The translations under genes were made by a program, and so were the position numbers. Below the pieces are notes generated by a model. That model worked only from the letters and a program-made list of their open reading frames with translations. It did no database searches and was not told the origin of the DNA. A stretch of DNA of 39,343 nucleotides from NCBI GenBank assembly GCA_030685015.1, contig JAUXWS010000059.1, positions 151,052 to 190,394 of the forward strand, written 5' to 3'. How positions within the stretch are numbered: the first letter of the stretch is position 1; each line of letters opens with the position of its first letter. Shown piece after piece: positions 9,938 through 28,021 of this stretch. This stretch comes from a bacterium (GTDB lineage Bacteria; CAIWAD01).

Positions 9938-12900
9938 ATGTCCAAGCGACACACGCTTCAGCATCCCGTCCGTGTGGTCACCGCCGCCAGCCTCTACGAC
10001 GGCCATGACGCCGCCATCAACATCATGCGGCGGGTGTTCCAGGCCGCCGGCGCCGAGGTCATCCACCTGGGACACAATCGCAGCGTGCTGGAGATTGTGC
10101 GGGCCGCCGTGCAGGAGGATGCCCAGGCCGTGGCCGTCTCCAGCTACCAGGGCGGCCACGTCCTCTTCTTCAAATACATGAAGGAGTTGCTGGCGCAGCG
10201 GGGCGCCGGCCATGTGAAGATCTTCGGCGGGGGCGGCGGTGTCATCGTCCGGGCGGAGATCGAAGAGCTGCACGCCGCCGGCATTGATCGCATCTTCAGC
10301 CCCCAGGATGGCACCGAACTGGGTCTGGAGGGCATGATCGACCTCGCCCTCGCCCTGAGCGATTACGATCCCGCCTCCTTGCCGATGGCGGACCTGGAGG
10401 CCCGCGTCCTGGCCCGCGACGAGGCGGCCCTGGGCCGGGCCCTCACCCTCTGCGAAAGAGGCGCGGCCGGGGCCACGCCCCGACCTGAACTTGTCCAGCT
10501 TCTCGCGGCGGGCCGAGCCTCGTGCACACCGGTTGTCGGCATCACGGGAACGGGCGGCTCCGGCAAGAGCAGCCTCACCGATGAGATCCTCCGGCACTTT
10601 CAGGCCGCTTTCCCGGACAAGAGCGCGGCCGTGGTGAGCGTGGACCCCACCAAGCGCAAGAGCGGCGGGGCCCTGCTGGGGGACCGCATCCGCGTCAACA
10701 GCCTGACAGGGGAGAGGGTTCTCCTGCGGAGCCTGGCCACGCGCGGCAGCGGCAGCGAGTTGTCGGCCGCCACCGGCGACGCCGTCGCCCTGCTCAAGGC
10801 GGCCGGCTACGATCTGGTGCTGCTCGAGACCAGCGGCATCGGCCAGGGCAGCTCCGCGGTGGTGGACCTGGCCGACTTCTCGATCTACGCCATGACCGCC
10901 GAGTATGGCGCGGCCAGCCAACTCGAGAAGATCGACATGATCGACTTTGCCGACATGGTCGTGCTCAACAAGTACGAGAAGCGGGGCAGCGAGGACGCCC
11001 TGCGCGACGTGCGCCGCCAGTACCGCCGCGCCCACTCCATTTCCTGGGAGGTGCCGGACGAGGATCTGCCGGTGTTCGGCACGGTGGCCAGCCGCTTTGA
11101 CTGCAACGGCACCAACTGGTTCTTCGACCGCTTGATGGAGGCCCTGGAATCGCGCTTCGGCGGCGGCTTTGCCCATGCGCCCTTGGCGCGGGACGCCCAT
11201 GTGCTGCGTCGCCAGCTCATCCCCGAGGAGCGCACCACCTACCTGGCCGAGATCGCCCGCAGCGTCCGTGACTACAAGTCCCGCGTGGCGCGGGACGCCG
11301 AGCTGCTGCGCCGTCGCGCCCACCTGGCCTCCGCCATCGAGGAGCTGGACGGCGGACACGCCGCCCTGGAGCTTTCGGCCCGTCGGGCCGACCTCGAGCG
11401 CCAACTCCACCCCGCCACCCTGCCCGCCCTGGAGGAGTACCGCGCCACCGCCGCCTGCTACACGGGCGATGTCTACGAGTACACCGTGCGTGGCCAGGTC
11501 CACCGGCAGGACCTGACCCGCGGGAGCCTGTCCGGCACCCGCGTCCCGCGCGTGGCCCTGCCCCGCCTCAGCGACGAGGGCGATCTTTACCGCTTCGTGG
11601 CCCTGGAGAACCTGCCCGGCTTCTTCCCCTACACGGCGGGCGTCTTCCCCTTCAAGCGCCAGGGCGAGGATCCCACCCGCCAGTTCGCCGGCGAGGGTCC
11701 GCCCGAGCGCACCAACCGCCGCTTCCATTACTTGTCCAGGGACAGCGGGGCCAAGCGTCTGTCCACCGCCTTCGACAGCGTCACGCTCTATGGCGAGGAC
11801 CCCGACGAACGTCCCGACATCTTCGGCAAGGTGGGCGAGAGCGGCGTCTCCATCTGCACGCTGGATGACATGAAGCGCCTCTACGCCGGCTTCGACCTCT
11901 CCGCGCCCAACACCAGCGTCTCCATGACGATCAACGGGCCGGCCCCCATGATCCTGGCCATGTATCTCAACACGGCCATCGACTTCGCCGTGGACAGGTT
12001 CCAGGCGGAACAGGGTCGCGCCCCCAACGCCGTGGAGCGCGCCGAGCTGCGCCGCCTCACGCTCTCCAGCGTGCGCGGCACGGTGCAGGCGGACATCCTC
12101 AAGGAGGACCAGGCCCAGAACACCTGCATCTTCTCCACCGAGTTCGCCCTCAAACTGATGGGCGACATCCAGGAGTGGTTCATCGCCCAGCAGGTGCGCA
12201 ACTACTACAGCGTGTCCATCAGCGGCTACCACATCGCCGAGGCGGGGGCCAACCCCATCTCCCAGCTGGCCTTCACCCTGGCCAACGGCTTCACCTACGT
12301 GGAGTACTACCTGAGCCGCGGGATGGCGGTGGACGATTTCGCGCCCAACCTCTCCTTTTTCTTCAGCAATGGACTGGACCCGGAGTACAGCGTGATCGGC
12401 CGCGTGGCGCGCCGCATCTGGGCCGTGGCCATGCGCGAGGTCTACCGCGGCAATGAGCGCAGCCAGAAGCTCAAGTACCACATCCAGACCAGCGGCCGCA
12501 GCCTGCACGCCCAGGAGATGGATTTCAACGACATCCGCACCACGCTGCAGGCGCTGCTGGCCGTTTACGACAACTGCAACAGCCTGCACACCAACGCCTA
12601 CGACGAGGCGGTGACCACCCCCACCGAGGAGAGCGTGCGTCGCGCCCTGGCCATCCAGCTCATTGTCAACCACGAGTTCGGTGTGACGAAGAACGAGAAT
12701 CCGCTCCAGGGCTCCTTCCTCATGGAGGATCTGACGGAGCTGGTGGAGGAAGCCGTTCTTGCCGAGTTCGTCCGGCTGAGCGAGCGCGGTGGCGTGCTGG
12801 GCGCGATGGAGACCCAGTACCAGCGGAGCCGCATCCAGGAAGAGTCCATGCTCTATGAGTTGAAGAAGCAGTCCGGCGAGCTGCCCATCATGGGCGTGAA

Positions 12901-13174
12901 CACCTTCCTGCGGCCCGGCGGCGACGAGGTGCCGGCGCACATGGAGCTGGCCCGGGCCAGCGACGAGGAGAAGGCGGGCCAGGTGACACGCCTGCGGGAC
13001 TTCCAGGCCGCCCACGCCGCGGAAGCCGGCCCGGCCCTGGCGCGGCTCAAGGCGGTGGCGGCGGCGGGCGGCAACATCTTCGACGAGCTGATGGAGACGG
13101 TCCGCGTGGCCAGCCTGGGGCAGATCACGCGCGCCCTCTTCGAGGTGGGGGGCCAGTACCGGCGCAACATGTAG
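9938..13174 (+). CDS. icmF: Fused isobutyryl-CoA mutase (B12 domain, G-protein chaperone and mutase in one chain)
   Basis: The 1078-residue protein has the full IcmF order. An N-terminal cobalamin-binding domain (about 1-140) has 'DGHDAAINIMRR', 'SSYQGGH' and 'FGGGGGVI'. A MeaB/ArgK-like GTPase (about 190-420) has P-loop 'GITGTGGSGKSS', 'VVSVDPTKRKSGGALLGDRIR' and 'VVLNKYEKRGSEDAL'. The TIM-barrel mutase (about 540-1078) has 'PYTAGVFPFKRQGEDPTRQF', 'GKVGESGVSICTLDDM' and 'EAGANPISQLAFTLANGF'. It interconverts isobutyryl-CoA and n-butyryl-CoA using adenosylcobalamin, with the GTPase loading and protecting the cofactor. The F in VFPF and the Q in NPISQ agree with isobutyryl rather than methylmalonyl specificity, as known for the family. 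Length is normal. No strong ribosome-binding site is seen at ATG 9938. Confidence 0.96.
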   Translation: MSKRHTLQHPVRVVTAASLYDGHDAAINIMRRVFQAAGAEVIHLGHNRSVLEIVRAAVQEDAQAVAVSSYQGGHVLFFKYMKELLAQRGAGHVKIFGGGGGVIVRAEIEELHAAGIDRIFSPQDGTELGLEGMIDLALALSDYDPASLPMADLEARVLARDEAALGRALTLCERGAAGATPRPELVQLLAAGRASCTPVVGITGTGGSGKSSLTDEILRHFQAAFPDKSAAVVSVDPTKRKSGGALLGDRIRVNSLTGERVLLRSLATRGSGSELSAATGDAVALLKAAGYDLVLLETSGIGQGSSAVVDLADFSIYAMTAEYGAASQLEKIDMIDFADMVVLNKYEKRGSEDALRDVRRQYRRAHSISWEVPDEDLPVFGTVASRFDCNGTNWFFDRLMEALESRFGGGFAHAPLARDAHVLRRQLIPEERTTYLAEIARSVRDYKSRVARDAELLRRRAHLASAIEELDGGHAALELSARRADLERQLHPATLPALEEYRATAACYTGDVYEYTVRGQVHRQDLTRGSLSGTRVPRVALPRLSDEGDLYRFVALENLPGFFPYTAGVFPFKRQGEDPTRQFAGEGPPERTNRRFHYLSRDSGAKRLSTAFDSVTLYGEDPDERPDIFGKVGESGVSICTLDDMKRLYAGFDLSAPNTSVSMTINGPAPMILAMYLNTAIDFAVDRFQAEQGRAPNAVERAELRRLTLSSVRGTVQADILKEDQAQNTCIFSTEFALKLMGDIQEWFIAQQVRNYYSVSISGYHIAEAGANPISQLAFTLANGFTYVEYYLSRGMAVDDFAPNLSFFFSNGLDPEYSVIGRVARRIWAVAMREVYRGNERSQKLKYHIQTSGRSLHAQEMDFNDIRTTLQALLAVYDNCNSLHTNAYDEAVTTPTEESVRRALAIQLIVNHEFGVTKNENPLQGSFLMEDLTELVEEAVLAEFVRLSERGGVLGAMETQYQRSRIQEESMLYELKKQSGELPIMGVNTFLRPGGDEVPAHMELARASDEEKAGQVTRLRDFQAAHAAEAGPALARLKAVAAAGGNIFDELMETVRVASLGQITRALFEVGGQYRRNM

Positions 13175-13243
13175 CGTCCCCCTTCCGACATTGGCGCCGT
13201 TTTTCCGGTGGCGCCGTCACTCCTTCCTCGCCACCTTGGCGCC

Positions 13244-14362
13244 ATGCAAGCAGTCACCCTTCCTCCCCTTGATGAGATGTGGCGGGCCTTCGCTGGCCGC
13301 GACAGCAGCTACGACGGCATCTTCCTGGCCGCCGTGCGCACCACCGGGATCTTCTGCCGGCCGGGTTGCCCAGCCCGGACACCCCGGCGCGAGCACGTGG
13401 AGTTCTTCGCCCATGCCCGGGACGCGCTCTTCTCCGGTTACCGGCCCTGCCTGCGCTGCCGACCGCTGGAGGCCGCGGGCGCGCCGCCGGCGGACATTGG
13501 CGCCCTTCTCCAGCATGTGGAGGCGGACCCCGGTCGACGCTGGCGGGCGTCGGATCTGCGCGACCTGGGCCTGCATCCCGACCGTGTGCGGCGCTGGTTC
13601 CAGCAGCATCACGGCATGAGTTTCCACGCCTACGCCCGTGCCCGCCGGCTCGGCGGCGCGCTGGCGGCCATCCGGGAGGGGGGGACCGTGACACGCAGCG
13701 CATTCGACGCCGGCTACGAATCGCTCAGCGGCTTCAGCGAAGCCCTGCGCAAAGTGGCCGGGACGGGTCCGACGGCGGCGGCAGGGAGGCGGATCATCCA
13801 CCTGCGACGCTTGGACAGTCCGCTGGGGCCGCTCCTGGCCGGCGCCGTGGATGAGGGACTCTGCTTGCTGGAGTTCGCCGGGCGCCGCATGCTGGAAGGT
13901 CAGCTGGCCACCCTCGCCCGGCACTTGCAGGCCATCTTCCTGCCTGGACCCCACCCCCTGCTCGACCAGGTCGAGGGGGAGCTGGCGGCCTACTTCGCCG
14001 GTGGCGGCGCGGGCTTCGCCACGCCCCTGCTCCTGCCGGGAACCGCTTTCCAGCGCCTGGTGTGGGACAAGCTGCGCCGCATCGAGCCCGGCACGACCAT
14101 CAGTTACGGCGAACTGGCGGCACGAATCGGCCGGCCCTCCGCCTCGCGGGCGGTGGCCCGGGCCAACGGCGACAACCGGGTGGCCATCCTTGTTCCCTGC
14201 CACCGCGTCATCGGTGCCGACGGCCGCCTCACCGGCTACGGTGGTGGCCTCTGGCGCAAGCAGCGCCTGCTGGAGCTGGAGGGGCCAGGAGCCGGACTCT
14301 CCGCTCCGGCGGGTCAGCCGGCCGGCCGGGACGAAAGGGCCAGCCAGCGCAGGACGGTGTAG
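13244..14362 (+). CDS. ada: Bifunctional Ada: DNA methylphosphotriester sensor / AraC regulator / O6-methylguanine-DNA methyltransferase
   Basis: The 372-residue protein has the zinc-thiolate methyl-acceptor domain with all four cysteines ('GIFCRPGCPA' and 'YRPCLRCRPL', about residues 38-72). An AraC-type helix-turn-helix region follows (about 85-180, 'DLRDLGLHPDRVRRWFQQHH' and 'SAFDAGYESLSGFSEAL'), then the C-terminal alkyltransferase domain with active-site 'ILVPCHRVIGADG' and 'ISYGELAARIGRP'. It repairs O6-methylguanine in a suicide reaction and, when methylated on the N-terminal Cys, activates adaptive-response genes. ATG 13244 puts the sequence in register with known Ada proteins; a GTG at 13208 in frame is less likely. 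Three GGCGCC motifs lie just upstream (13190-13243). The 3' end overlaps the convergent gene by 49 nt. Confidence 0.95.
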   Translation: MQAVTLPPLDEMWRAFAGRDSSYDGIFLAAVRTTGIFCRPGCPARTPRREHVEFFAHARDALFSGYRPCLRCRPLEAAGAPPADIGALLQHVEADPGRRWRASDLRDLGLHPDRVRRWFQQHHGMSFHAYARARRLGGALAAIREGGTVTRSAFDAGYESLSGFSEALRKVAGTGPTAAAGRRIIHLRRLDSPLGPLLAGAVDEGLCLLEFAGRRMLEGQLATLARHLQAIFLPGPHPLLDQVEGELAAYFAGGGAGFATPLLLPGTAFQRLVWDKLRRIEPGTTISYGELAARIGRPSASRAVARANGDNRVAILVPCHRVIGADGRLTGYGGGLWRKQRLLELEGPGAGLSAPAGQPAGRDERASQRRTV

Positions 14363-15282: not shown

Positions 15283-15747
15283 CGGTTCATCCTCCTCTTC
15301 GTCCTGTTGCTTGCCCCCCTCGTGTCCGGGGACGAGGGTCAAAGCACGCCCTCGCCGGAGGGCGCTTCGCCAACCTTCCGCTATGATGCGGCGGTGGCCT
15401 CCTTCAACGCGGGACGCCACCAGGCCGCGGGGCGGGATTTCGAGGCCCTGCTGCGCGACCCGGCCCTGCCCGACGACCTGCGCGACAACTGCATGTACTG
15501 GCTGGGGGAGTCCCACTACGCGCGTCGACAGTGGCTGGACGCCCTCGCCTGCTTCCAGAAGGTGTTGGAGCACGTCCAATCCAACAAGGAGGAGGATGCC
15601 CGCCTGAAGATCGCCCTCTGCTGGCTCAACCTGGGAGACACGGGTCGCGCCTGCCGGGAGGCCCGCGCCCTGGTGGAGCGCTTCCCGGATTGCGAGGCGG
15701 CGCCCCGCGCCCGTCGCCTGCTGGAGCGTTGCCCGCGCAGTGATTGA
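15271..15747 (+). CDS. Exported TPR-like protein (YbgF/CpoB-type tail)
   Basis: The 158-residue protein has a signal peptide (about 1-19, 'MLIHRFILLFVLLLAPLVSG') and then three tetratricopeptide-like helix pairs: 'YDAAVASFNAGRHQAAGRDF', 'YWLGESHYARRQWLDALACF' and 'ALCWLNLGDTGRACREARAL', ending 'FPDCEAAPRARRLLERC'. This matches the C-terminal TPR half of Tol-Pal-associated proteins, without the coiled-coil half. The start codon overlaps the 5' end of the divergent lipoprotein gene, and no good ribosome-binding site is visible. It overlaps the M23 gene by 8 nt, so the two are likely coupled and work in the envelope. Confidence 0.75.
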   Translation: MLIHRFILLFVLLLAPLVSGDEGQSTPSPEGASPTFRYDAAVASFNAGRHQAAGRDFEALLRDPALPDDLRDNCMYWLGESHYARRQWLDALACFQKVLEHVQSNKEEDARLKIALCWLNLGDTGRACREARALVERFPDCEAAPRARRLLERCPRSD

Positions 15748-17851
15748 GCAGGCTCCGCCCCCGCGCGTCCCTGGATGCCGCCCTGCCCTCGGCGGCAATC
15801 CCGCCCGCCCCCTGCTCGTGTTGTCGGCCGCTCTCCTGGGCCTGCTGCTGCTGGCCGGCCCTTTGCTGCACCAGGGCGACAGCGGCGAGGCGGCGGGTTC
15901 GCCGGAACCACCCCGTCCTGCCATCGTCATCGCGCCCATCGGGCCTTTGCTGGCGGAGCGCACCCGCTTCACCGCCGGATTCGGCGAGCCGCGCAGCCTG
16001 CGCCTGCATGCCGGCGTGGACTTCTCCACCAACCAGCGCACGGGCATGCCCGTGCTGGCGCCGGCCGGGGGCTGGCTCTCGCGCATCGCCGCCGACTACA
16101 CGGGTTATGGCCTGCAGCTCATGCTGACCGACTCCCTGGGCCGCCGCCACCTCTTCGCCCATTTGAAGGCCTTTCGCGCGGACGTGGAGGCGGAGCTGGA
16201 GCGCCTGCGCCAGGAAAGCGGCCTCTACCCGCAGCTCCTGCATCCCCACCCCGGCGCCTTCCCGGTACGTGGCGGCGAGGTGATCGCCTGGAGCGGCGAC
16301 ACGGGCATCGGCTCCGCCCATCTGCATTATGAGCTGCGCTCCACCGACGAGGACCGCTGCTGGAATCCCCTCCGCCACGGGATGGCTCTGCCCGACAACC
16401 TGCCCCCCGCCATCGAGGGGCTGGCCCTGGTCCCGCTGATGGTCGGCTCCCGCGTGGAGGGAGGACTCTTCCCGCACCGCCTGGCGCCGCTCCAGTCAGG
16501 CTCCGGGCGCTACCAGGCGCCCGACACGTTGGACTGCCAGGGAGCGGTGGGGCTTGCCCTCCAGGTCATCGACCGCCTGCCCGGCACGGGAGGCCGCCTG
16601 CCCGTCTGGAGGGTGGCGCTGGTGGAGGAGGGCGACACCCTCTTCAACATCCGCCTGGATTCCTTTCCCCTGGACCACAACCCGCAGAGCGGACGCCTCT
16701 TCCACCGATGGTTGAAGTGGGAGAGCGGGCAGCACCACATGCGGCTCTGGGGAGATGGCGGTGGACTGGGCTTGTGGGACCAGGCGGCGGGCGACGGCGT
16801 CCTGCGCCCCGATCCGACCCGCCCCCTGCGTCACCTGGAGATCCTGGTCTGGGACGCCGCGGAGAACCCGGCCCGGCTCAACCTGCTGCTCCGGCAGCGA
16901 CCCGGCCGCCCGCTGGATCCCGTCTTCTCGGCCGGACGGGCCGGCGGCCAGGCTGGAGAGAAGGAGAAGGCGGCCTGGTCCCTGTTCCCCTTGCCGGATG
17001 GCCTGCATCTGCGCCTGGCGCCGCTGCCGGCCTCGGCCGCCGCGCGATGCCCCGTGCTGGTGGCCGGAGCGGACACGCTGCGCGCATGGGGCCAGTGGCG
17101 CGCTCGCGGCTGGGAATGGGCGCTGGACAAAGGGGAGGAAGCCCGCGCCCTGGCCCACGGCCAATTGGAAGTGGGGGACCGGCGGGATCTGCCGACGCTG
17201 GCGCTGCGGGGATTGCGCCTGGAACCTGATCGGGCGGTCCGCTGGCGACACCCGGATGGCGGCCTGGGCATCGTGGCCGACAGCGCAACAGTGGAGCAAT
17301 CCACCCTGCTCCTCGTCAACGGTTGGCGTGACGCCCGGCGACCCTTCACCCTGGATCCCCCCCACCTGCAACTGGAGCGGCCCCTGACGCTGGAGCTGGA
17401 GTTGGAAGCCTGGCCGGCTGACGACTGGGCGGAGCTGGCTCTTTTCCAGGCGGGAGCGAAGGGACAGCCGGCCTCCCTCGTCGCGGGAGGGGGCGGGCGC
17501 GAACGCAACCTGTTCAGGACGACGGTGGGGCGCACGGGCGACTATGTCCTCCACGCGGACCGGAGCGGCCCTGCCGTCACGCTGCACAAGCCGGGTACGA
17601 AGTCCGGCCGCCATCCGACCCGGCCCACCCTCGTCTGGACCATCGGGGACGACCCGTCCGGCATTGCCAACGTGGAGCTGCGCGAGGGCGGACGGCGCCA
17701 CTATCCGCATTATGAACCGGATACGCGGCGGGTGGAGTTCAGGCCGGATCGGCCCTGGGATCCGGGCGAGCATGAAGTGGAGCTGCGCGTGCGGGATCGC
17801 TCCGGCAACGAGACCATCCTGTCGTCCACCATCCGGATCGCCAAGCCCTGA
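15740..17851 (+). CDS. M23-family (LytM-fold) exported or membrane-anchored protein
   Basis: The 703-residue protein has an N-terminal hydrophobic anchor (about 23-44, 'LLVLSAALLGLLLLAGPLL'). An M23/LytM domain follows (about 70-210) with zinc-ligand motifs 'LHAGVDF' (HxxxD) and 'SAHLHYEL' (HxH), and the 'SRIAADYTGYGLQLML' core. The middle 350 residues are unassigned beta-rich sequence. The C-terminus (about 605-700) looks like an Ig-like domain ('LVWTIGDDPSGIANVELREG', 'WDPGEHEVELRVRDRSGNE'). M23 enzymes cut peptidoglycan cross-links; the metal ligands are present, so activity is plausible, although many such proteins are regulators. GTG 15740 overlaps the preceding stop. Confidence 0.85.
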   Translation: MIEQAPPPRVPGCRPALGGNPARPLLVLSAALLGLLLLAGPLLHQGDSGEAAGSPEPPRPAIVIAPIGPLLAERTRFTAGFGEPRSLRLHAGVDFSTNQRTGMPVLAPAGGWLSRIAADYTGYGLQLMLTDSLGRRHLFAHLKAFRADVEAELERLRQESGLYPQLLHPHPGAFPVRGGEVIAWSGDTGIGSAHLHYELRSTDEDRCWNPLRHGMALPDNLPPAIEGLALVPLMVGSRVEGGLFPHRLAPLQSGSGRYQAPDTLDCQGAVGLALQVIDRLPGTGGRLPVWRVALVEEGDTLFNIRLDSFPLDHNPQSGRLFHRWLKWESGQHHMRLWGDGGGLGLWDQAAGDGVLRPDPTRPLRHLEILVWDAAENPARLNLLLRQRPGRPLDPVFSAGRAGGQAGEKEKAAWSLFPLPDGLHLRLAPLPASAAARCPVLVAGADTLRAWGQWRARGWEWALDKGEEARALAHGQLEVGDRRDLPTLALRGLRLEPDRAVRWRHPDGGLGIVADSATVEQSTLLLVNGWRDARRPFTLDPPHLQLERPLTLELELEAWPADDWAELALFQAGAKGQPASLVAGGGGRERNLFRTTVGRTGDYVLHADRSGPAVTLHKPGTKSGRHPTRPTLVWTIGDDPSGIANVELREGGRRHYPHYEPDTRRVEFRPDRPWDPGEHEVELRVRDRSGNETILSSTIRIAKP

Positions 17852-18102: not shown

Positions 18103-19662
18103 ATGGCAATGCACTCCACAGCAGGCGGTTCTTGGCGCATCCTTGTTGCCGTGCTGGCCATGGTGATGCTGCAAGGCTGCGAGCGCATCAGTCCAGTGGG
18201 GCGGGATCCCGCCCTGGGCGCTGATGCCGTTGTCCTCACCTGCGAGAGCTGTCATACCACCCGCTCCTACCTGCGCCGGCTGGCCCTGGAAGAGGAGAGC
18301 GGCGGCGGTGGGGGCGGTGGCTGAGGCGGCTCGGTGGCTCCGTTGGAGCCATTCGAGAAGGTGTTCATCAACGCCGCCAGCTACGCCGAGGTGGATCCCC
18401 GCCACGCGGCCATCGGCTGCGTCACCTGCCACGGCGGCACGGAGCCGGTGGTGGCCGCCAGCGAGGCGCGGGACGACCTTTGGGTGGCCATGGCGTCCGC
18501 CCACGAGTTCACGGTGGAATACACGGGCAACGGCACCGTCATCCGGCGCAAGCCGGCGGTCAAGGGCGTGGTGCGCGATCCCTCCGCCCAGGCCGAGCTG
18601 AACTGCAATGGAGCGGGATGCCACTCCACCATCGTGGAGCTGAACGCCACCTCCATGCACACGCAGCTCTGGGGAGAGAAACACAAGGTGGCCCTGCGCG
18701 CCGGCTACGAGCGCTTCGAGGACTGCCCGCAGCTGCTCAAGGACGGCTACAACGGCGAGTGCACCAGCTGCCACACCACGTGCGGCCAGTGCCATGTCTC
18801 GCGGCCCAACTCCGTGCACGGCGGCCTCCTGGAGAGTCACCGTTTCAAGCGCACGCCGGAGATCGAGAACAACTGCACGGCCTGCCACGGCAGCCGCGTG
18901 GGCAACGACTTCACCGGCCACCTGGAGGGCAACCAGCCCGACGTCCATTACGACCTGGGCTATGACTGCTTCTTCTGTCACCGGGAGAACCTGCATGGGG
19001 ATGGGCGGATGGACTACACCACCCGCTATGAAGTGGCAGGCCTGCCGCAGTGTGTCAATTGCCACCAGCTGGCGTCCGACGACAACCTCTTCCACGAATA
19101 CCATTGGCCCAGCGGCAATTCCATCGAAGAGGGCCTTTCCTGCCACGTCTGCCACAGCCAGCCCTACACCAATTGTCTCAACTGCCATGCGGGCGGGGTG
19201 TGGAGCAGCGGCAATCCCGAGGGCTACGCCGAGTACGGCGACTTCCGCATCGGGCGCAACACGGGGCAGTGGCCCAACCATCCCGTCTCCAAGGAGGAGT
19301 GGGTGACGGTGCGTCACATCCCGGTCATCAAGGACGGATTCCGGGAGTGGGGCTGGCCCGTCCTGGACAACTGGGTCGCCTTCGAGACCTGGGAGTACGC
19401 CAGCCCGCACAACATCCAGCGCTACACGCCGCAGACGGAGATCGCGCTGGTCAATCCCGCCTATTCCATGGCCGACTGCTGGATGAACTGCCATGTGCAG
19501 GGTCCGCACGAGACGGTGAACGCCGGTCGCTTCCTGTGGTTGAGCCATTTGGACAGCCTGAAGCACCACGTGACCGGCCTGGAGGACGCGGACGAATACG
19601 TGCGGGCCAACCGGCGGGTGGCGGTGGATGACAGCATCAGCCGTTATTGGAACCGCCACTAA
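18103..19662 (+). CDS. Multiheme cytochrome c lipoprotein (11 hemes) with in-frame TGA, candidate selenoprotein, ExtKL-like
   Basis: Read through the TGA at 18322-18324 (codon 74), this is a 519-residue protein with lipobox LQGC (Cys26). Its heme sites are CESCH (47), then CVTCH, CNGAGCH (CX4CH), CTSCH, CGQCH, CTACH, CFFCH, CVNCH, CHVCH, CLNCH and CWMNCH (CX3CH). The TGA lies in a glycine run (seven Gly before it, GGS after it) and the frame is unbroken on both sides. A restart at GTG 18334 would give a cytochrome with no export signal, which could not acquire hemes. A hairpin with a 3-nt loop starting with G (18333-18353) begins just after the TGA, resembling a bacterial SECIS. The ribosome-binding site GGAAGG is at 18093-18098. 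The Geobacter ext locus has, as I recall, a comparable extK/extL pair. Nonsense mutation or sequencing error remains possible. Confidence 0.7.
18333..18353 (+). promoter_or_regulatory. SECIS-like hairpin downstream of the in-frame TGA
   Basis: Arms 18333-18341 and 18345-18353 can form nine pairs (seven Watson-Crick plus two G-T at the base) around the loop GTT at 18342-18344. Seventeen nucleotides separate the TGA from the loop, and the first loop base is G. Both agree with the published bacterial SECIS consensus as I remember it (loop 16-37 nt from UGA, G in the first two loop positions). In GC-rich DNA such hairpins also arise by chance. Confidence 0.4.
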
Positions 19663-19719
19663 GGGTCTGCCGGGCTTGGGCATGCCGCTGGTTGAGTGAA
19701 ATTGATTGAAGGAGCGCAT

Positions 19720-20925
19720 GTGGGACGACACATTCACCTGTGTGCGATGGTTTTCGCCAGCGGGCTGCTGCTAGGCCTTGGCTGCTCAGATGACGAAGAC
19801 GCCAACGCCAGGCCTCAAATCCAATCCCTGACGGCCAGCAACTTGAATCCGGCCCCGGCGGAGACGATCACCTTGACCTGTGAGGCGACGGATGCCGACG
19901 GCGACGAGTTGTCCTACGCCTGGCGGGCCAACGGACTCCCTTTCGGGGCCGATGCCGCCCAGGTCCAGTGGCAAGCGCCGGCGTCCAGCGGCCTGGTCAC
20001 AGTGTCGGTCACGGTGTCGGACGGCATCGACACGGCCAGTCGCTCACTTCCGATCCAGGTCGGGCAGAACGAGTTCGCCCTGCTCACGGGCGTGACCGAT
20101 CCCTCCTTTCCGGCCTGGAACGTCGATTGGCTCAAGGAGCCGACCTACGTCTACAACCATCAGGCGCAGCTCTTCATCGTTGATCTGCGCAGCTCGCTCG
20201 CCTACGCCAACGGCCACATCACGGGCGCCCGCAACACCAGCGTGGCCAACCTGGCCGCCTATGTCGCCGCCAACAACTCGGGGGGAGATGAGATCGCCCT
20301 GGTCTGCGACACAGGCCAGATCGCCGCCTTCGCCGCCATGGGCTTGCGCATGCTGGGGCACGACGCCTTCTGCATGAAATGGGGCATGGCCGGGTGGAAC
20401 GATCTGCTGGCAGGGCCGTGGGATTCCGGCATCAGCAATCAATACGCGAACATCATGTCCAACAGCGCCAGCCCGAACCTGCCCGTCAACAACTGGCCGA
20501 CCCTGGCCACCGGGTTGTCCAGCGGACAAGCCATCCTGCAGGCGCGCGTGGCGGCCATCTTCGCCGAGGGGTTCGGGAACAACGTGATCAACGCCTATGA
20601 AGTGATGGACAGCCCTGGCACCTATCACATCCACAACTACTGGGTGACCCAGGACTACGAGGATGTCGGACACATCGCCGGCAGCTACCAGTTGACACCG
20701 GGCGCCGTCACCACGGCCACCGCCCTGTCCGCCCTGCACCCCACTCAAATCAACGTCTTGTACTGCTGGACAGGCCATACCAGCGCATTCGTCGGCTTCT
20801 ACCTCAATGTCTTGGGGTACGACCTTCTGAGCATGCGGTTCGGGGCCAACGCCCTCATGCATGACGACCTGCCCCGGGAGCGGTGGGTGCATCAAGGGCA
20901 CAACTTCCCGACGGTCACCAACTGA
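19720..20925 (+). CDS. Lipoprotein with Ig-like domain and two rhodanese-like domains (ExtH-like)
   Basis: The 401-residue protein has lipobox LGLGC (Cys22) and a PKD/cadherin-like beta domain (about 30-115, 'CEATDADGDELSYAWRANG'). Two rhodanese-like domains follow. The first (about 135-225) reads 'LFIVDLRSSLAYANGHITGA' with active-loop Cys in 'LVCDTGQIAAF'; the second (about 285-390) reads 'DVGHIAGSYQLTPGA' with 'VLYCWTGHTSAF'. Both keep a cysteine at the loop position, so sulfur or selenium transfer chemistry is possible. GTG 19720 is chosen because AAGGAG at 19709-19714 precedes it; a GTG at 19696 in frame lacks that signal. Rhodanese lipoproteins accompany porin-cytochrome genes in Geobacter ext loci (recollection). 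Location is probably the outer membrane. Confidence 0.85.
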   Translation: MGRHIHLCAMVFASGLLLGLGCSDDEDANARPQIQSLTASNLNPAPAETITLTCEATDADGDELSYAWRANGLPFGADAAQVQWQAPASSGLVTVSVTVSDGIDTASRSLPIQVGQNEFALLTGVTDPSFPAWNVDWLKEPTYVYNHQAQLFIVDLRSSLAYANGHITGARNTSVANLAAYVAANNSGGDEIALVCDTGQIAAFAAMGLRMLGHDAFCMKWGMAGWNDLLAGPWDSGISNQYANIMSNSASPNLPVNNWPTLATGLSSGQAILQARVAAIFAEGFGNNVINAYEVMDSPGTYHIHNYWVTQDYEDVGHIAGSYQLTPGAVTTATALSALHPTQINVLYCWTGHTSAFVGFYLNVLGYDLLSMRFGANALMHDDLPRERWVHQGHNFPTVTN

Positions 20926-20975: not shown

Positions 20976-21908
20976 TTGACCTTCTCCGATCTTTCTTGGA
21001 CGAAGCGGGCGGCGCTGGTGGCAGCGCTGCTTGTCGGCCTCATGTATGCGACGACAGGGATCGCTCCCGCCGCCGATCCCGGCAAGTCCTCCTGCGGGCT
21101 GTGCCTGCCCCTTTCGACCGCTCGCGCCGAGGCGCCGCCGCCGCCGGTCCACCATCATGTGAGCATCCCCGGCAAGGTCAACCCGCACGGGCGGAGCGGC
21201 CGCTGCGCCTCCTGCCACCTGCCCGGCCGCGAACCGGCGGCCGAGAGCTGGCGTCCCGGCGCCTGCCTGGAATGCCATGACGCCCAGGCCCACCTGCGGG
21301 CGATCCATCCCACGGACTTCGCGGGGGACAGCCCGAAAGCGCCTGCCTTCGCCGGGGCGCCCCTGCAGGATGGCCGCTCCACCTGCCTGACCTGCCATGC
21401 CGTCCACTGCGCCCCGGAGACCAGGCACCGCGTCTCGCGGGAGAACCGCAGCATGCTGCGCGGCGGCCCCTGGCCCCGGGAGACGGATTTCTGCTACCAG
21501 TGCCACGACCGCGGCCTCTACCAACCGGTCAATCCCCATCTTGCCGGAGCGGAGGGCCGGGTCTGCTGGTACTGCCATGTTGGCAGCGGAGGGACGGGCC
21601 CCGTCCCGGGCACCGACCTGCAGTTGCTGCAGGGCGAGCTGTGCCTGAAGTGCCACAAGGACGTCAAGCACGAGCGGGAGCACATGGGCCGCTCGGTGCT
21701 GCACAACCGGCTGAAGATGGACACGGCCGCCGCGCTGGCGAGCTTCCAGGCCGGGAGTGGCGTCGTGCTGCCCCTGGATCCCGAGGGCCGGGTGGCCTGC
21801 GCCACCTGCCACAGCCCCAATCCCGCCTGCTCGCGGGGCGCACCGCCGGCCTCGAAGCTGCTGCGGGCAGCCAAGGAACGGATCTGTTATGCCTGTCATG
21901 ACTTGTAG
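20976..21908 (+). CDS. Octaheme c-type cytochrome, periplasmic
   Basis: The 310-residue protein has an N-terminal signal/anchor helix (about 10-32, 'AALVAALLVGLMYATTGIA') and eight CXXCH sites in order: CASCH, CLECH, CLTCH, CYQCH, CWYCH, CLKCH, CATCH and CYACH. Extra histidines (VHHHV, AVHCAPETRH, KHEREH) could supply distal ligands. TTG 20976 is the predicted start, with GGGGAG at 20967-20972. The last heme site is five residues from the C-terminus, and the gene overlaps the next by 20 nt. It is probably a soluble or weakly anchored electron carrier between the inner-membrane modules and the outer-membrane conduit. The spacing of sites is not that of a characterised octaheme reductase I can name. 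Confidence 0.85.
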   Translation: MTFSDLSWTKRAALVAALLVGLMYATTGIAPAADPGKSSCGLCLPLSTARAEAPPPPVHHHVSIPGKVNPHGRSGRCASCHLPGREPAAESWRPGACLECHDAQAHLRAIHPTDFAGDSPKAPAFAGAPLQDGRSTCLTCHAVHCAPETRHRVSRENRSMLRGGPWPRETDFCYQCHDRGLYQPVNPHLAGAEGRVCWYCHVGSGGTGPVPGTDLQLLQGELCLKCHKDVKHEREHMGRSVLHNRLKMDTAAALASFQAGSGVVLPLDPEGRVACATCHSPNPACSRGAPPASKLLRAAKERICYACHDL

Positions 21909-22929
21909 TCGACCGCGGGTCCGTCCGGGCTGCCGGCTTTTGCCCATGCTGCTCGTACTGGCGGCAACGGTGACAGCCCATGCCCGCCTGGCGGACTCCG
22001 AGAACTGCGAGCTGTGCCACGGTCTGCCGCTGCTGGCACGCCTCGACGAAGGGGGCCAGCTGCGGCTCTTCGAGGTCAGCGCCACCATGGTGCAGCACTC
22101 TTCGCACCGCGGCATCGGCTGCCGGGACTGTCACAGCGACATCGACGCCTTTCCCCACCCCGAGCGCGTCCAGCCTGTGGATTGCGGCAAGACCTGTCAC
22201 GTCAACCGGCCCTTCGAACTGACCGTCTTCTCCCACCGCGCCGAGGTGGAAGCGCTGGCCCTCAGTATCCACGGCCGCAACGACAAGGAGAACGAGGAGA
22301 CCAACGCCGCCAAGCCCACCTGCAAGTACTGCCACGGCAGCCACCTGATGGCCCAGCCATCCCAGCGGGTGCAGGAGCAGGCGCGGCACTGTGCCAGTTG
22401 CCACGACGGCAACTCCCTGGAGAGCGTCATCGAGCATGTGGACCGCCACACCTCCCACCGCAGCGCCGAGAACTCGATCAACATCGTCAAGCTCTGCGCC
22501 AGCTGCCATGGGGACGCCACCCTGATGGAGAGCGTCAATTTGAGCAGCACGCAGGTGGCGGGGTTCCAGCATCACTTCCACGGCAAGGCGATGCGGCGCG
22601 GTCTGGACGGAGTGGCCAATTGCGCCGATTGCCACACCAGCCACCTGGTGTTGCCCCAGGACGACCCGGCGTCCACCCTCTCGACGGCGAACATCCGCCA
22701 GACATGCGGCACCGTCAATTGCCACGTCAATCCCAGCCTCGAATTCGCCCGCTCGGCCATTCATTCGCAGCCCACGATGAAAAGCAATCCCGTCGTCTAC
22801 GCCGTGAGCTGGGGATTCATCCTGCTCACGGCCATCACCATGGCCCTGCTTTTCAGCCACATCCTGCTGGATTTTGGCCGCTGGCTGCACGACCGCTTCA
22901 CGACGGGAGGGCGCCATGAGGGTAAGTGA
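21889..22929 (+). CDS. Octaheme c-type cytochrome with C-terminal membrane anchor (split module, part 1)
   Basis: The 346-residue protein has a signal peptide (about 12-32) and eight heme sites: CELCH, CRDCH, CGKTCH (CX3CH), CKYCH, CASCH, CASCH, CADCH and CGTVNCH (CX4CH). A transmembrane helix closes it (about 300-328, 'VYAVSWGFILLTAITMALLF'). The order of site types, with CX3CH third and CX4CH eighth, is identical in the N-terminal part of the fused gene at 24504-27080. The start is ATG 21889 or 21898; AAGGAA at 21873-21878 suits the former. It overlaps both neighbours (20 nt before, 14 nt after). With the next two genes it looks like a quinol-to-cytochrome module of the CbcL general type. 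Confidence 0.88.
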   Translation: MPVMTCSRPRVRPGCRLLPMLLVLAATVTAHARLADSENCELCHGLPLLARLDEGGQLRLFEVSATMVQHSSHRGIGCRDCHSDIDAFPHPERVQPVDCGKTCHVNRPFELTVFSHRAEVEALALSIHGRNDKENEETNAAKPTCKYCHGSHLMAQPSQRVQEQARHCASCHDGNSLESVIEHVDRHTSHRSAENSINIVKLCASCHGDATLMESVNLSSTQVAGFQHHFHGKAMRRGLDGVANCADCHTSHLVLPQDDPASTLSTANIRQTCGTVNCHVNPSLEFARSAIHSQPTMKSNPVVYAVSWGFILLTAITMALLFSHILLDFGRWLHDRFTTGGRHEGK

Positions 22930-23704
22930 CCGCATCCGCGTCATCGGCGAACGCCGCGAGTATCTGCGCTTCACCACTTCGCAACGCCTGCAGCACGTCT
23001 TCATGTTCGTGCCCTTCACCGTCCTGGTGGTGACGGGCTTTCCCATCAAGTTCCCTGACAGCTCTTTCTGGACCTGGGTGGTGGACGTGTTCGGGGGAAT
23101 TGGAAACATCCGCAGCCTGCACCGCATCGCCGCGGTGGTGATGATCGTCGACTTCTGCTTCCATGTCGTCTATATGCTGTTCAACATCGTTCGCAACCGC
23201 ACGAGAGTGAAGGACATGCATCTGCTGCCCGACCGGCAGGACCTGCGCGACATCCGGGACAACCTGCGCCACTTCCTGTTCCTCACGGACGAGCGGCCGC
23301 GCTTCCGCCGCTTTTCCTACCTGGAGAAGTTCGACTACTGGGCGGTCTTCTGGGGCATGTTCATCATGGCCGGCAGCGGACTCATCCTCTGGCATCCGGA
23401 GGAGGCGGGGCGCTGGCTGCCCGCCTCGGCGATCCAGATCGCTTACGTGGCGCACAGCGACGAGGCGCTCCTCGCCTTCCTCGCCATCGTCATCTGGCAC
23501 TTCTACAACGTGCACTTCAATCCCCGCGTCTGGCCGGCCAACAAAGTGTGGTACAAGGGCGCCCTGTCCGAGGAGCGCATGCGGGAGGAGCACCCCCGGG
23601 AGCTTGAGGAGATTCTCGAACAACTGAAGCGGGGCCGGCAGCGGCGGCACGACGATGTGGGCGATGGTCAAGGGCCACAGGACGGCCGGGACGGTGGGGC
23701 ATGA
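22916..23704 (+). CDS. b-type cytochrome, inner-membrane quinol-oxidising subunit (split module, part 2)
   Basis: The 262-residue integral membrane protein has four predicted helices: about 20-40 'VFMFVPFTVLVVTGFPI', 60-88 'HRIAAVVMIVDFCFHVVYML', 138-158 'WAVFWGMFIMAGSGLILW' and 175-200 'SDEALLAFLAIVIWHFYNVH'. Histidines in the helices (LQH, LHR, FHV, AHS, WHF) are candidates for two b hemes, as in the formate dehydrogenase gamma/cytochrome b561 family. GGGAGG at 22905-22910 precedes ATG 22916. The gene overlaps both neighbours, and its homologue is the central part of the 24504-27080 fusion. The charged C-terminal tail is low-complexity. Confidence 0.87.
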   Translation: MRVSDRIRVIGERREYLRFTTSQRLQHVFMFVPFTVLVVTGFPIKFPDSSFWTWVVDVFGGIGNIRSLHRIAAVVMIVDFCFHVVYMLFNIVRNRTRVKDMHLLPDRQDLRDIRDNLRHFLFLTDERPRFRRFSYLEKFDYWAVFWGMFIMAGSGLILWHPEEAGRWLPASAIQIAYVAHSDEALLAFLAIVIWHFYNVHFNPRVWPANKVWYKGALSEERMREEHPRELEEILEQLKRGRQRRHDDVGDGQGPQDGRDGGA

Positions 23705-24504
23705 ACACCAGAGCCGTGGGACGGATCCTTTACGCCCTGGCCGTGTTCGCCGTGGGCAGCGCCATTTCCATCCTCTTGGTGCGATGGGCGAATCAGCCCC
23801 ACCGCGCGGACGAGGAGGCGGCCCCGGACAAGCGCCAGTTCGCCGACCACATCCGCCAGTTGGAGAGCTGGTTCGAGGATTACCGCAACCAGGAGCGGCA
23901 CTTCCACACCATCGAGATCCACCCCCTGCTTCCTCTGGGACAGCAAGAGGCCTGCCTGACCTGCCATCCCCTCTTCCCGCACACCAAGGATGCCAAGCGC
24001 CGGGCCTTCTACAACCAGCACTCCCACTTCCTCAGCTGCCTGGCCTGCCACCTGGACGACGAATCGAGGGGAAGGACGCGCCTGGAGTGGACCACCTTCG
24101 GGGTTGAGAACTCGATCACGGCCCGCGGCCCCTACGGACTGGAACGTCTGGAGAACGGCGGTCTGACGGGCGCGGGGAACTATATAAGCCGGATGGTGCC
24201 TGTGCTGTCCGCAGGTGGAAGCTCCACGCTGCTCTTCACTCCCTACGACGACAAGCGCTACCAGGCCTTCCGCGCCGACGCCGAGGGCGGACTTGAGATC
24301 GATGAGGCCGAATTCCGGGAGTTCGCCGAGGAGCATGTGGGCGACAAGCCGCTGGCCTGCCTGTCTTGTCATGCCCCGGAGACGGAGTTCCCCTGGAGCC
24401 CCCTCGGCTTCAGCCAGGGCCGCATCCACGAGTTGACACACTCCGCCGCGGTGGGCATGGTGGAGAACTACGAGCCATTCCACTTCCCGATCCTGGAGGA
24501 CTGA
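23701..24504 (+). CDS. Triheme c-type cytochrome with N-terminal membrane anchor (split module, part 3)
   Basis: The 267-residue protein has an uncleaved N-terminal helix (about 7-28, 'ILYALAVFAVGSAISILLV') and three heme sites: CLTCH, CLACH and CLSCH. Several histidines occur around the first two ('HPLLPL', 'FPHTKD', 'NQHSHFLS'). The blocks 'NQHSHFLSCLACH', 'GAGNYIS' and 'PLGFSQGRIHELTHSAAVG' align with 'NLHSRFMSCEGCH', 'GLGNYTS' and 'ALGFDEGRIRQLRSSAITA' in the C-terminus of the fused gene. The start overlaps the cytochrome b stop (ATGA at 23701-23704), and the stop overlaps the next start. It probably passes electrons from the b subunit to the periplasm. Confidence 0.86.
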   Translation: MNTRAVGRILYALAVFAVGSAISILLVRWANQPHRADEEAAPDKRQFADHIRQLESWFEDYRNQERHFHTIEIHPLLPLGQQEACLTCHPLFPHTKDAKRRAFYNQHSHFLSCLACHLDDESRGRTRLEWTTFGVENSITARGPYGLERLENGGLTGAGNYISRMVPVLSAGGSSTLLFTPYDDKRYQAFRADAEGGLEIDEAEFREFAEEHVGDKPLACLSCHAPETEFPWSPLGFSQGRIHELTHSAAVGMVENYEPFHFPILED

Positions 24505-27080
24505 TGAGCCGCGTGCCCATCCCCATCCTGCTCCTGGCCCTGCTGTTGGCGGGGCTGGCCCGTGCCCAGGACACGCGGTTCGATCCGGAGAACTGCCTTT
24601 ACTGCCACGGCAAGCCGTGGATGGCGGTGCTGGATTCGGCGGGGGTCCGCAACTTCCACATCGACGAGAACGTCCACCGGGAGTCCGTCCATGGGCGCTT
24701 CGCCTGCCGGCAGTGCCATGTGGACATCGACCAGGTGCCGCACCGCACGCCTGTGCAGAAGGTGAACTGCGCCGTCGCCTGCCATGTGATCGACCCCTAC
24801 ACGGGCAGGGACTTCAGCCATCTCCAGATGGCCCAGGATCTGGCCAACTCCGTGCACGGCAAGTCGGGCAAGGGTGCCCTCGACCACCGCAAGCCGGTCT
24901 GCAAGGACTGCCACGTCAATTCCATCTACTGGCAGAAGCTGCCGAGCAACCTGGAGCGGGCCAGGAACAAGTGCCTGGCCTGCCACGAGAACTACAACGA
25001 GCTCGAGGGGGACTTCAAACACCTGGCCCTGCACATCAGCGAGAGCGAGTACTGGCGCACCCAGAAAAACTTCGAGGCCTGCATCCGCTGCCACACGGAC
25101 AACGAACTGGTGTCGGACAGCCTGGCCACCCTGCTCATTGACGGGACGATGGTCTCCAGCTTCCTCAAGTCCTTCCACGGGCGCGGCTTCAGTTTCGGTG
25201 ACCGCCGCAGCCCGGTGTGCGCGGACTGCCACGGCTACCACAAGGTGCTGAGCCACACGGACGAGCGATCCATGATCCACTCGTCCAACCTGCGGCAAAC
25301 CTGCAGCGCCACGGGCTGCCACGACGGCGCCACCGTCGCCTTCGCCACGGCCGGCTCCATGCACGACCTTTACCAGGGCGTCAAGGTGCACGTGTTGGTG
25401 TGGGTGAAGCGGGTGTACATCTGGCTCATCGTGCTCACCATCGGCGGCATGATGCTGCACAACCTGCTGGACTGGTGGTCCTGGCGCCGCCATCGCAAGG
25501 CCCACGCCGCAGCCGCGGCGAAGGCGGAGCAGGCGGGGGCGGTGCGCCGCGTCTTCCGGCGCTTGACGCCCGCGGAGCGCATCTCCCACGTCATCATGTT
25601 CGTCAGTTTCACGCTGCTCGCCCTCACCGGCGTCATCCTGTGGATTCCACCGGAGCGCTTCGGCACGCTGACGCACTGGGTGTATTTCATGCCGGTGCGC
25701 GACTGGAGCCACCGGGTGGCGGCCATCATGCTGACGCTGGTCAGCGTCTACCACGTGGGCTACGCCCTCTTCACCCGGCGCGGGCGCGCCTTGCTGGGGA
25801 CCATGCTGCCTGGTCCCTCCGACATCCGCCTCTTCTTCCACAACCTGGCCTTCATGCTGGGCAGGCGGAAGGACAGGCCCCCCTTCGGTTTCTTCAATTA
25901 CAGCGAGAAGATGGAGTACTGGGCCTTCGCCTGGGGCTCCCTCGTCATGACCGCCACCGGCATCATCCTGTGGTGGGAGCACCTGGGCAGCAAGTTCATC
26001 GTGGATCTTGCCCGCCTGGTCCACTCCCTGGAAGCGATCCTGGCCGTGGCGGCCATCGTCGTCTGGCACTTCTGGAATGTCCACTGGAAGCCGGCCCGCT
26101 GGCCCATGAGCGAAGTGTGGATCGACGGCAGGATGGGCGAGGAGGACATGGAGGAGGAACACGGCGCGCTGATGGCGGCGGACGCCGTGACGACCCACGG
26201 ATCGATTCTCATGCAGGAGGTGACGGGAACACCGGAGCGCCGCCGCCACACCCGCAAGGTGCTGGCCCGCACCCTGGGCTGGTCTTTTCTCACGTTGACC
26301 ATTCTCACCTGCGCGGCGATGGTCTGGTCCTTCCGTCTCTACCTCGGCTTGGGTGGAAGGGACTCCGACACCATGGTCGCCCAGTGGCTGAAGCGTCCCC
26401 TGGCCGACAAGGAGGCCGCCCTCGCCGATCCCACCTACCCGCTGCGGGTGGCCCACGAGGACGTGGACTGGCGGCACCGCCGCTTCCACGACCAGCAACC
26501 GGTGGTGGTGGAGGACAGCCAGTTGCGCCGCAGCGAGTGCCTGCTTTGCCACTCCCTGCTGCCGCATCAGGGGAATGTCAAGACCCGGTCCTACATCAAT
26601 CTGCACAGCCGCTTCATGTCCTGCGAGGGCTGCCACGCGCATCCCGTGGATCGGCAGCCTTCCAACTGGGCCTGGCTGGACCTGCGCCGCAACCCCGCCG
26701 GTCAACCGGACCTGCCCTACAAACTACTGTCGGAGCCCGCGGGCACGGGTCTGGGAAATTACACAAGCCTTCTGGGCCTGAAAGTGGATGGCGCCCACCT
26801 CTTTGCCGACCTGGACAGCGAGCGGGCCCGCGAGTACCTGGGCGGCACGGCGCCCATGACCCAGGCCCGCATGAAAGAGACGAAGGACCGCTTCCACGAC
26901 CGCATCCGGGCGGAACCGGGGTCCGGCGCCCAGTGCAGCGAGTGCCACGCCGCCGAGGGAGGCCTCCTCGACTACCAAGCCCTGGGCTTTGATGAAGGCA
27001 GAATCCGCCAACTGCGCAGCAGCGCCATAACCGCGAGCGTGACCGACAATGAAATCTTCTATCTGCCGCCGGCCTACTGA
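24504..27080 (+). CDS. Fused inner-membrane cytochrome: octaheme c domain + b-type cytochrome + triheme c domain
   Basis: This 858-residue single chain repeats the preceding three genes in order. It has a signal peptide (1-21). Eight c-hemes follow (about 31-272: CLYCH, CRQCH, CAVACH, CKDCH, CLACH, CIRCH, CADCH, CSATGCH), then an anchor helix (about 300-322). The b-type cytochrome domain spans about 350-545 (histidines in ISHVIM, WSHRVAAI, YHVGYAL, LVHSLEAI, VVWHFWNVH). A further helix (about 590-612) precedes three c-hemes (CLLCH about 680, CEGCH about 707, CSECH about 811). By family knowledge, CbcL-type proteins combine a multiheme domain with a b-type domain and oxidise menaquinol; the extra triheme C-terminus is unusual. 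ATG 24504 overlaps the previous stop (TGATG). GGAGGA lies at 24495-24500. Confidence 0.9.
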   Translation: MSRVPIPILLLALLLAGLARAQDTRFDPENCLYCHGKPWMAVLDSAGVRNFHIDENVHRESVHGRFACRQCHVDIDQVPHRTPVQKVNCAVACHVIDPYTGRDFSHLQMAQDLANSVHGKSGKGALDHRKPVCKDCHVNSIYWQKLPSNLERARNKCLACHENYNELEGDFKHLALHISESEYWRTQKNFEACIRCHTDNELVSDSLATLLIDGTMVSSFLKSFHGRGFSFGDRRSPVCADCHGYHKVLSHTDERSMIHSSNLRQTCSATGCHDGATVAFATAGSMHDLYQGVKVHVLVWVKRVYIWLIVLTIGGMMLHNLLDWWSWRRHRKAHAAAAAKAEQAGAVRRVFRRLTPAERISHVIMFVSFTLLALTGVILWIPPERFGTLTHWVYFMPVRDWSHRVAAIMLTLVSVYHVGYALFTRRGRALLGTMLPGPSDIRLFFHNLAFMLGRRKDRPPFGFFNYSEKMEYWAFAWGSLVMTATGIILWWEHLGSKFIVDLARLVHSLEAILAVAAIVVWHFWNVHWKPARWPMSEVWIDGRMGEEDMEEEHGALMAADAVTTHGSILMQEVTGTPERRRHTRKVLARTLGWSFLTLTILTCAAMVWSFRLYLGLGGRDSDTMVAQWLKRPLADKEAALADPTYPLRVAHEDVDWRHRRFHDQQPVVVEDSQLRRSECLLCHSLLPHQGNVKTRSYINLHSRFMSCEGCHAHPVDRQPSNWAWLDLRRNPAGQPDLPYKLLSEPAGTGLGNYTSLLGLKVDGAHLFADLDSERAREYLGGTAPMTQARMKETKDRFHDRIRAEPGSGAQCSECHAAEGGLLDYQALGFDEGRIRQLRSSAITASVTDNEIFYLPPAY

Positions 27081-28002: not shown

Positions 28003-28021
28003 GGTGGTGGAGGCAGTGACC

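Follow-up and report, generated by a model that had tools for sequence, protein, structure and literature searches.

An eleven-heme cytochrome family, distinct from ExtKL, that very probably contains selenocysteine

The cytochrome gene and its surroundings

The window, by which we mean the whole 39,343-nucleotide stretch of bacterial DNA analysed here, carries a frame of 519 codons, if its single TGA is counted as selenocysteine (Sec), that starts at ATG 18103, ends at TAA 19660–19662 and contains no stop other than that TGA (Table 1). The frame encodes, in order, an LQGC motif ending at Cys26, a CESCH heme site (residues 47–51), seven glycine codons, the TGA and then GGC GGC TCG, which places the TGA between heme sites 1 and 2, with one heme site before it and ten after it. 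Nine of the heme sites are of the CX2CH type; the other two are CX4CH (CNGAGCH, residues 168–174) and CX3CH (CWMNCH, residues 459–464). Since both are ordinary CX2CH sites in several homologs, eleven is a fair count. A cysteine matching Cys26 is found in most homologs, while those in genomes G035, G318, G279 and G142 apparently carry plain signal peptides, again judged by eye.

Table 1. Features of the selenocytochrome candidate gene and of the genes that follow it in the window.
Feature	Position	Strand	Evidence
11-heme c-type cytochrome gene, very likely Sec-containing	18103..19662	+	same TGA in 16 homologs; dN/dS <1 on both sides
Lipoprotein-type signal peptide ending at Cys26 (LQGC; lipobox-like, LAMVMLQGC)	18103..18180	+	read by eye, no signal-peptide program
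Heme site 1, CESCH, 5' of the TGA; invariant across the family	18241..18255	+	sequence, alignment
Gly-rich linker with predicted Sec, GGGGGGG-U-GG; family motif G-x-G-U-[GA]-[GA]	18301..18330	+	sequence, alignment
In-frame TGA, very likely the selenocysteine codon, residue 74	18322..18324	+	frame, homolog alignment, dN/dS
Bacterial SECIS-like stem-loop, 9 pairs (two G-U), loop GTT at 18342–18344, 17 nt after the TGA	18333..18353	+	folding, synonymous recoding p=0.0005, covariation
Downstream portion with ten heme sites; a stand-alone GTG ORF would have no export signal	18334..19662	+	frame reading
Tandem-rhodanese lipoprotein-like gene, Cys loops CDTGQIA and CWTGHTS	19759..20925	+	PF00581 3.6e-16
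8-heme c-type cytochrome, kept in near relatives	20976..21908	+	domain search, neighbourhood comparison
Further multiheme cytochrome	21829..22929	+	domain search
b561-type membrane cytochrome b; electrons likely enter or leave here on the quinone side	22916..23704	+	PF01292 5.1e-14
Small multiheme c-type cytochrome	23701..24504	+	domain search
Multiheme c/cytochrome b561 fusion, with more hemes besides	24504..27080	+	domain search, neighbourhood comparison

The hallmarks of a multiheme c-type cytochrome, namely multiple CXnCH sites together with an export signal, are therefore met, the motifs by counting and the signal peptide by eye. From comparison, and without chemical proof of Sec, the product is very likely an exported 11-heme c-type cytochrome, probably anchored by lipid, that carries one Sec at codon 74. 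The original prediction had described a polyglycine linker interrupted by an in-frame TGA, ten more heme sites without another stop, a total of eleven hemes, a lipoprotein signal and a downstream part lacking an export signal of its own. All of these points held when the frame was re-read, with the qualifications that two heme sites are non-canonical in the window and that the lipoprotein signal is a lipobox-like LQGC recognised by eye.

The rhodanese gene that follows, which has a Cys in each of its two active-site loops, has an alternative upstream GTG start at 19696 in the list of open reading frames. A fusion related to the multiheme c/cytochrome b561 protein also adjoins the homologs in G108 and G347. 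Further upstream lies a long frame (9938–13174) that, by eye, resembles a fused B12-dependent acyl-CoA mutase and G-protein chaperone, adjoined by one that likewise resembles an Ada-type methyltransferase (13208–14362).

Conservation of the in-frame TGA and of a downstream hairpin

Homologs were collected by a search of 60 relatives followed by a profile search of 386 genomes. This yielded 16 linker-bearing homologs from 12 families, with 30–78% identity to the window protein, in at least four phyla: that of the window (G000–G004), that of G108 and G244, that of G035 and one or more others. When the phyla around G108 and G035 were searched, no additional matching genomes came up; the search around G309 returned linker-less forms only. 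Exactly one in-gene TGA, always in the same alignment column and in the context G-x-G-U-[GA]-[GA], is present in all 16 full-length linker-bearing homologs; the search rows of G347 and G108 show extra stops, which fall outside the gene body. Cysteine was not seen at the Sec position in any homolog examined, and neither TAA nor TAG ever occupies the TGA column among the homologs. The dN/dS ratio is about 0.2–0.4 before the TGA and 0.14–0.35 after it, which indicates purifying selection on both flanks. The conservation of this position is more than chance, and a general criterion for bacterial selenoproteins, a conserved in-frame TGA with selection on both sides, is met.

A second criterion is a hairpin just 3' of the TGA with a G in its apical loop. 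In the window this hairpin reads GGTGGCTCC-GTT-GGAGCCATT, and the originally predicted three-nucleotide loop beginning with G, 17 nt past the TGA, held. A comparable hairpin, with its apical loop 16–17 nt past the TGA and a G among the first two loop positions, is present in 15 of the 16 homologs, the lone exception being G258, for which no good hairpin was found under the criterion used. In a control where genes were recoded synonymously with their own codon usage, the hairpin was unexpected in 15 of 16 (p from 0.0002 to 0.02); the combined p value (Fisher) is 7e-19, although four of the sequences are close relatives and so not independent. Across the alignment, 80.4% of stem cells are paired, compared to 58.6% in shuffled and 42.9–50.9% in slid controls, and the stem covariation score is 0.565 against 0.188 for shuffled alignments (0 of 500 as high) and at most 0.25 for slid ones. 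An Rfam scan of the stretch gave no meaningful match. Sequence comparison thus establishes the SECIS layout as real and covarying.

These data bear on two other explanations. The first is that an ordinary cytochrome gene has suffered a GGA-to-TGA nonsense mutation, or a sequencing or assembly error; in its favour, the TGA is one base away from the glycine codon GGA and sits within a glycine run. However, the same TGA recurs in independent assemblies (L032, L033, L034) and in unrelated genomes down to about 30% identity, selection remains purifying 3' of it, and the hairpin is kept by covariation. This explanation, which the original prediction had itself put forward as the simple alternative, failed and can be dismissed almost completely. 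Glycine codons at this place in homologs would have refuted the prediction; the linker-bearing homologs carry TGA instead.

The second is that the locus comprises two genes with coupled translation, one for a short lipoprotein with a single heme and one for a protein with ten hemes, an option that Fujita et al. (2007) left open for GSU2937/GSU2936 of Geobacter. In its favour, several homologs share with the window an in-frame GTG at the fourth codon past the TGA. Against it, most homologs have no ATG start near the TGA; G279 and G142 lack any start codon in the 25 codons that follow it, and in G035 the first comes no earlier than codon 16. Maturation of cytochrome c takes place in the periplasm and needs an export signal, and the downstream part has none. 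Furthermore, the GxGU[GA][GA] motif extends across the stop, which is never TAA or TAG, and the linker-less form in family f22 is one uninterrupted frame. We consider two separate genes very improbable, and read the locus as a single gene.

Selenocysteine machinery and the linker-less clade

The genome of the window encodes SelB (291 bits, above the curated cut-off), SelA (479 bits) and a tRNA-Sec(UCA), the latter scored at 59.3 bits by Rfam (gathering threshold 47) and called tRNA-SeC (tca) by ARAGORN. The joint presence of SelA, SelB and tRNA-Sec, a further criterion for selenoproteins, is thus met; a lack of SelB and tRNA-Sec would have counted as refutation.

The same data address genome-wide reassignment of TGA, for example to glycine as in code 25, a possibility raised by the location of the TGA within a glycine run. 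On the other side, neighbouring genes in the window, such as that at 15740–17851, terminate normally in TGA, as do the homologous genes in several relatives, a genuine tRNA-Sec(UCA) is present together with SelA and SelB, and the TGA keeps a conserved position beside a SECIS. Reassignment is, in our judgement, next to ruled out.

Among the 18 genomes with a homolog, SelB is above cut-off in 14, and each of the 16 genomes with the Sec form has it above cut-off or at least in fragmentary form. Gaps among the latter are few: G001 has SelA and a SelB fragment, G004 (67% complete) has a C-terminal part of SelB but neither SelA nor full SelB was found there, and SelA was not found in G035 (86% complete). 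The two genomes whose homolog lacks the TGA (G024 and G309, 95–99% complete) have no SelA and no SelB above cut-off, and are exactly the two that remain of the 18 once those with SelB above cut-off or in fragmentary form are set aside. In the G309 homolog the TGA and the entire Gly-U linker are absent; in that of G024 the TGA is absent (of the two, only G309 retains the N-terminus).

In the linker-less version the whole GxGUGG segment is missing and is not replaced by cysteine. Five more loci without the linker (L105, L106, L107, L109 and L110) occur in the phylum of G309; SelA and SelB were not searched in these genomes. In the G309 copy, at least, heme site 10 is gone as well (YKNTYDYISMYSG).

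In a tree, one branch with full support sets the Sec-less forms apart from the rest. The tree has no resolved root, and loss of Sec in this clade, as opposed to gain elsewhere, is likely without being shown.

We conclude that Sec is very likely inserted at the TGA. The comparative support is strong, yet there are no peptide, 75Se or mutant data, and the selenocysteine interpretation stands as supported, not chemically demonstrated. Insertion would proceed by the SelA/SelB/tRNA-Sec route through the hairpin.

Relation to ExtKL, the rhodanese neighbour and possible chemistry

Selenocysteine is known mostly from thiol-redox folds, and the only studied family of multiheme selenocytochromes is ExtKL of Geobacter (GSU2937+GSU2936; NCBIfam NF040886), a predicted selenocytochrome (PMC1914089, PMC5877670, PMC6148476, PMC13188914), to which one listed octaheme can be added. 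The proposal that ExtKL is a selenoprotein dates from 2007 and was made without a detectable SECIS (PMC1914089). Its gene clusters with those for the rhodanese ExtH, the porin ExtI and the multihemes ExtM/N (PMC5877670, PMC6148476); deletion of extI impairs selenite and tellurite reduction (PMC5877670), and the cluster also serves Fe(III) and Mn(IV) reduction (PMC6148476). An inventory from 2026, covering 119 prokaryotic selenoprotein families and subfamilies, includes ExtKL and the Sec-annotated octaheme TIGR04315 (PMC13188914); none of its entries fits the 11-heme family.

The two families share a multiheme c-type architecture, a conserved in-frame TGA, the absence of a cysteine form in either, and a cluster layout in which a rhodanese lipoprotein (ExtH) is joined by a porin (ExtI) and additional multihemes. 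They differ in that Sec in ExtKL follows five hemes and precedes a C-terminal domain free of heme motifs, whereas in the window protein it comes after heme 1 of 11; and a SECIS was not found for ExtKL, whereas the 11-heme family has a clear, covarying one. No member of our homolog set (A1) matches NF040886 (cut-off 250 bits), even at an E value of 10, and a search of 145 and 386 genomes with this model found no true ExtKL member above cut-off. Given the lack of NF040886 matches, and Sec following heme 1, not heme 5, we treat the 11-heme proteins as a separate family. The statement in the original prediction that extK and extL are treated as one gene is right (PMC6148476, PMC5877670, PMC1914089); the window gene itself is not ExtKL and has its Sec elsewhere.

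Other resemblances are weak. The best family member, from G035, scores 47.7 bits with the ExtM model (NF040943, cut-off 800) and 39.3 bits with the DmsE-type model (TIGR03508, cut-off 192), and distant members match the GSU2203 multiheme (NF041028) far below its cut-off of 325; no Sec is given for these cytochromes in PMC13188914. TIGR04315, the tetrathionate reductase family octaheme, is likewise multiheme with a GenBank-annotated Sec (PMC13188914), but no A1 member matches it. A glycine context for Sec is shared with YeeE/YedE (GUxSG) and selenobacteriocin (SGUG) (PMC13188914), for which we claim no kinship in sequence or hemes. The window protein itself has no match with the ExtM model or any other NCBIfam model, and a profile search against the PDB returned no relative (best E 0.015). 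Hence, with multiheme selenocytochromes as a kind already predicted, the 11-heme family is very probably distinct from ExtKL and so far undescribed, and its core description as a Sec-containing 11-heme cytochrome is held with the same confidence, short of chemical proof. Standard gene calling would split or truncate such genes, and these cytochromes have probably been missed or mis-annotated.

A rhodanese gene adjoins all 16 Sec-form genes. The ExtKL feature of a rhodanese in the cluster is thus met by the window, but its rhodanese is not above the cut-off of the ExtH model. At the one Sec-less locus examined, in G309, no rhodanese was found in the roughly 9 kb flanking the linker-less gene on each side. 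The neighbours belong to several subtypes (short in G318, another subtype in G035, G142 and G279), and the partner may therefore have been replaced instead of strictly inherited. A partnership between rhodanese and selenocytochrome is likely, on gene neighbourhood only. Taken together, the clear SECIS, the Sec-less clade (in the genomes tested, without Sec machinery) and the constant rhodanese make it possible to test what selenium does in envelope electron transfer.

In the mechanism we propose, the glycine-flanked selenol would be a mobile redox arm that attacks a persulfide (sulfane sulfur) held by the rhodanese, or a species derived from selenium or tellurium oxyanions. Electrons would pass between the resulting Se-S or Se-Se centre and the heme chain, and the multiheme and b-type cytochromes of the operon would carry them onward to the quinone pool or bring them from it. 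This chemistry is inferred from gene neighbourhood only, and we judge the balance to tip slightly against it. An AlphaFold model built with four sequences (pLDDT 30) was too poor to place Sec relative to the hemes.

It remains possible, though less likely in our judgement, that the same selenoprotein uses its selenolate as an axial heme ligand or switch, not as a mobile sulfur or selenium group. Only eight non-motif histidines are invariant for eleven heme motifs (alignment A4), so some sites may be without a histidine sixth ligand, and an open or selenium-ligated heme is still a live option; Sec also lies between the first two hemes. On the other hand, distal ligands can be poorly conserved, the Sec stands in a glycine-rich, presumably floppy stretch, and the universal rhodanese neighbour suggests sulfur chemistry. 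Another possibility, likewise less favoured, is an analogue of ExtKL in metal or selenite/tellurite reduction, where the selenol would reduce Se(IV) or Te(IV) and the rhodanese take the product. The neighbourhood of rhodanese, barrel and multihemes resembles Geobacter extHIJKLMN, one neighbouring rhodanese (G142) gives a sub-cut-off match (1.1e-19) to the ExtH model, and the extI phenotype points the same way; against this, no direct phenotype is available for any 11-heme family member, and the ext cluster also handles Fe(III) and Mn(IV). Keeping to the mobile selenol, a bolder reading, which we offer as speculation marginally more apt to be wrong than right, would make this a widespread selenoprotein family in which a glycine-arm selenol between two hemes, together with the rhodanese, forms a heme-wired S/Se/Te oxidoreductase, with ExtKL an independent solution to the same problem.

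Clusters in G108, G201, G244 and G347 also contain a putative beta-barrel gene and an 11–12-heme cytochrome. The neighbouring rhodanese is internally duplicated in G002 (L032:7594–9429) and G244 (L086:6547–8559), with four CxxGxx[AS] loops. Further downstream, the window encodes an 18-heme cytochrome (28004–30196) and an 11-heme doubled-CXXCH protein (32978–34660), with a long putative beta-barrel frame (30963–33005) between them; the region 28004–34660 may be a second electron conduit.
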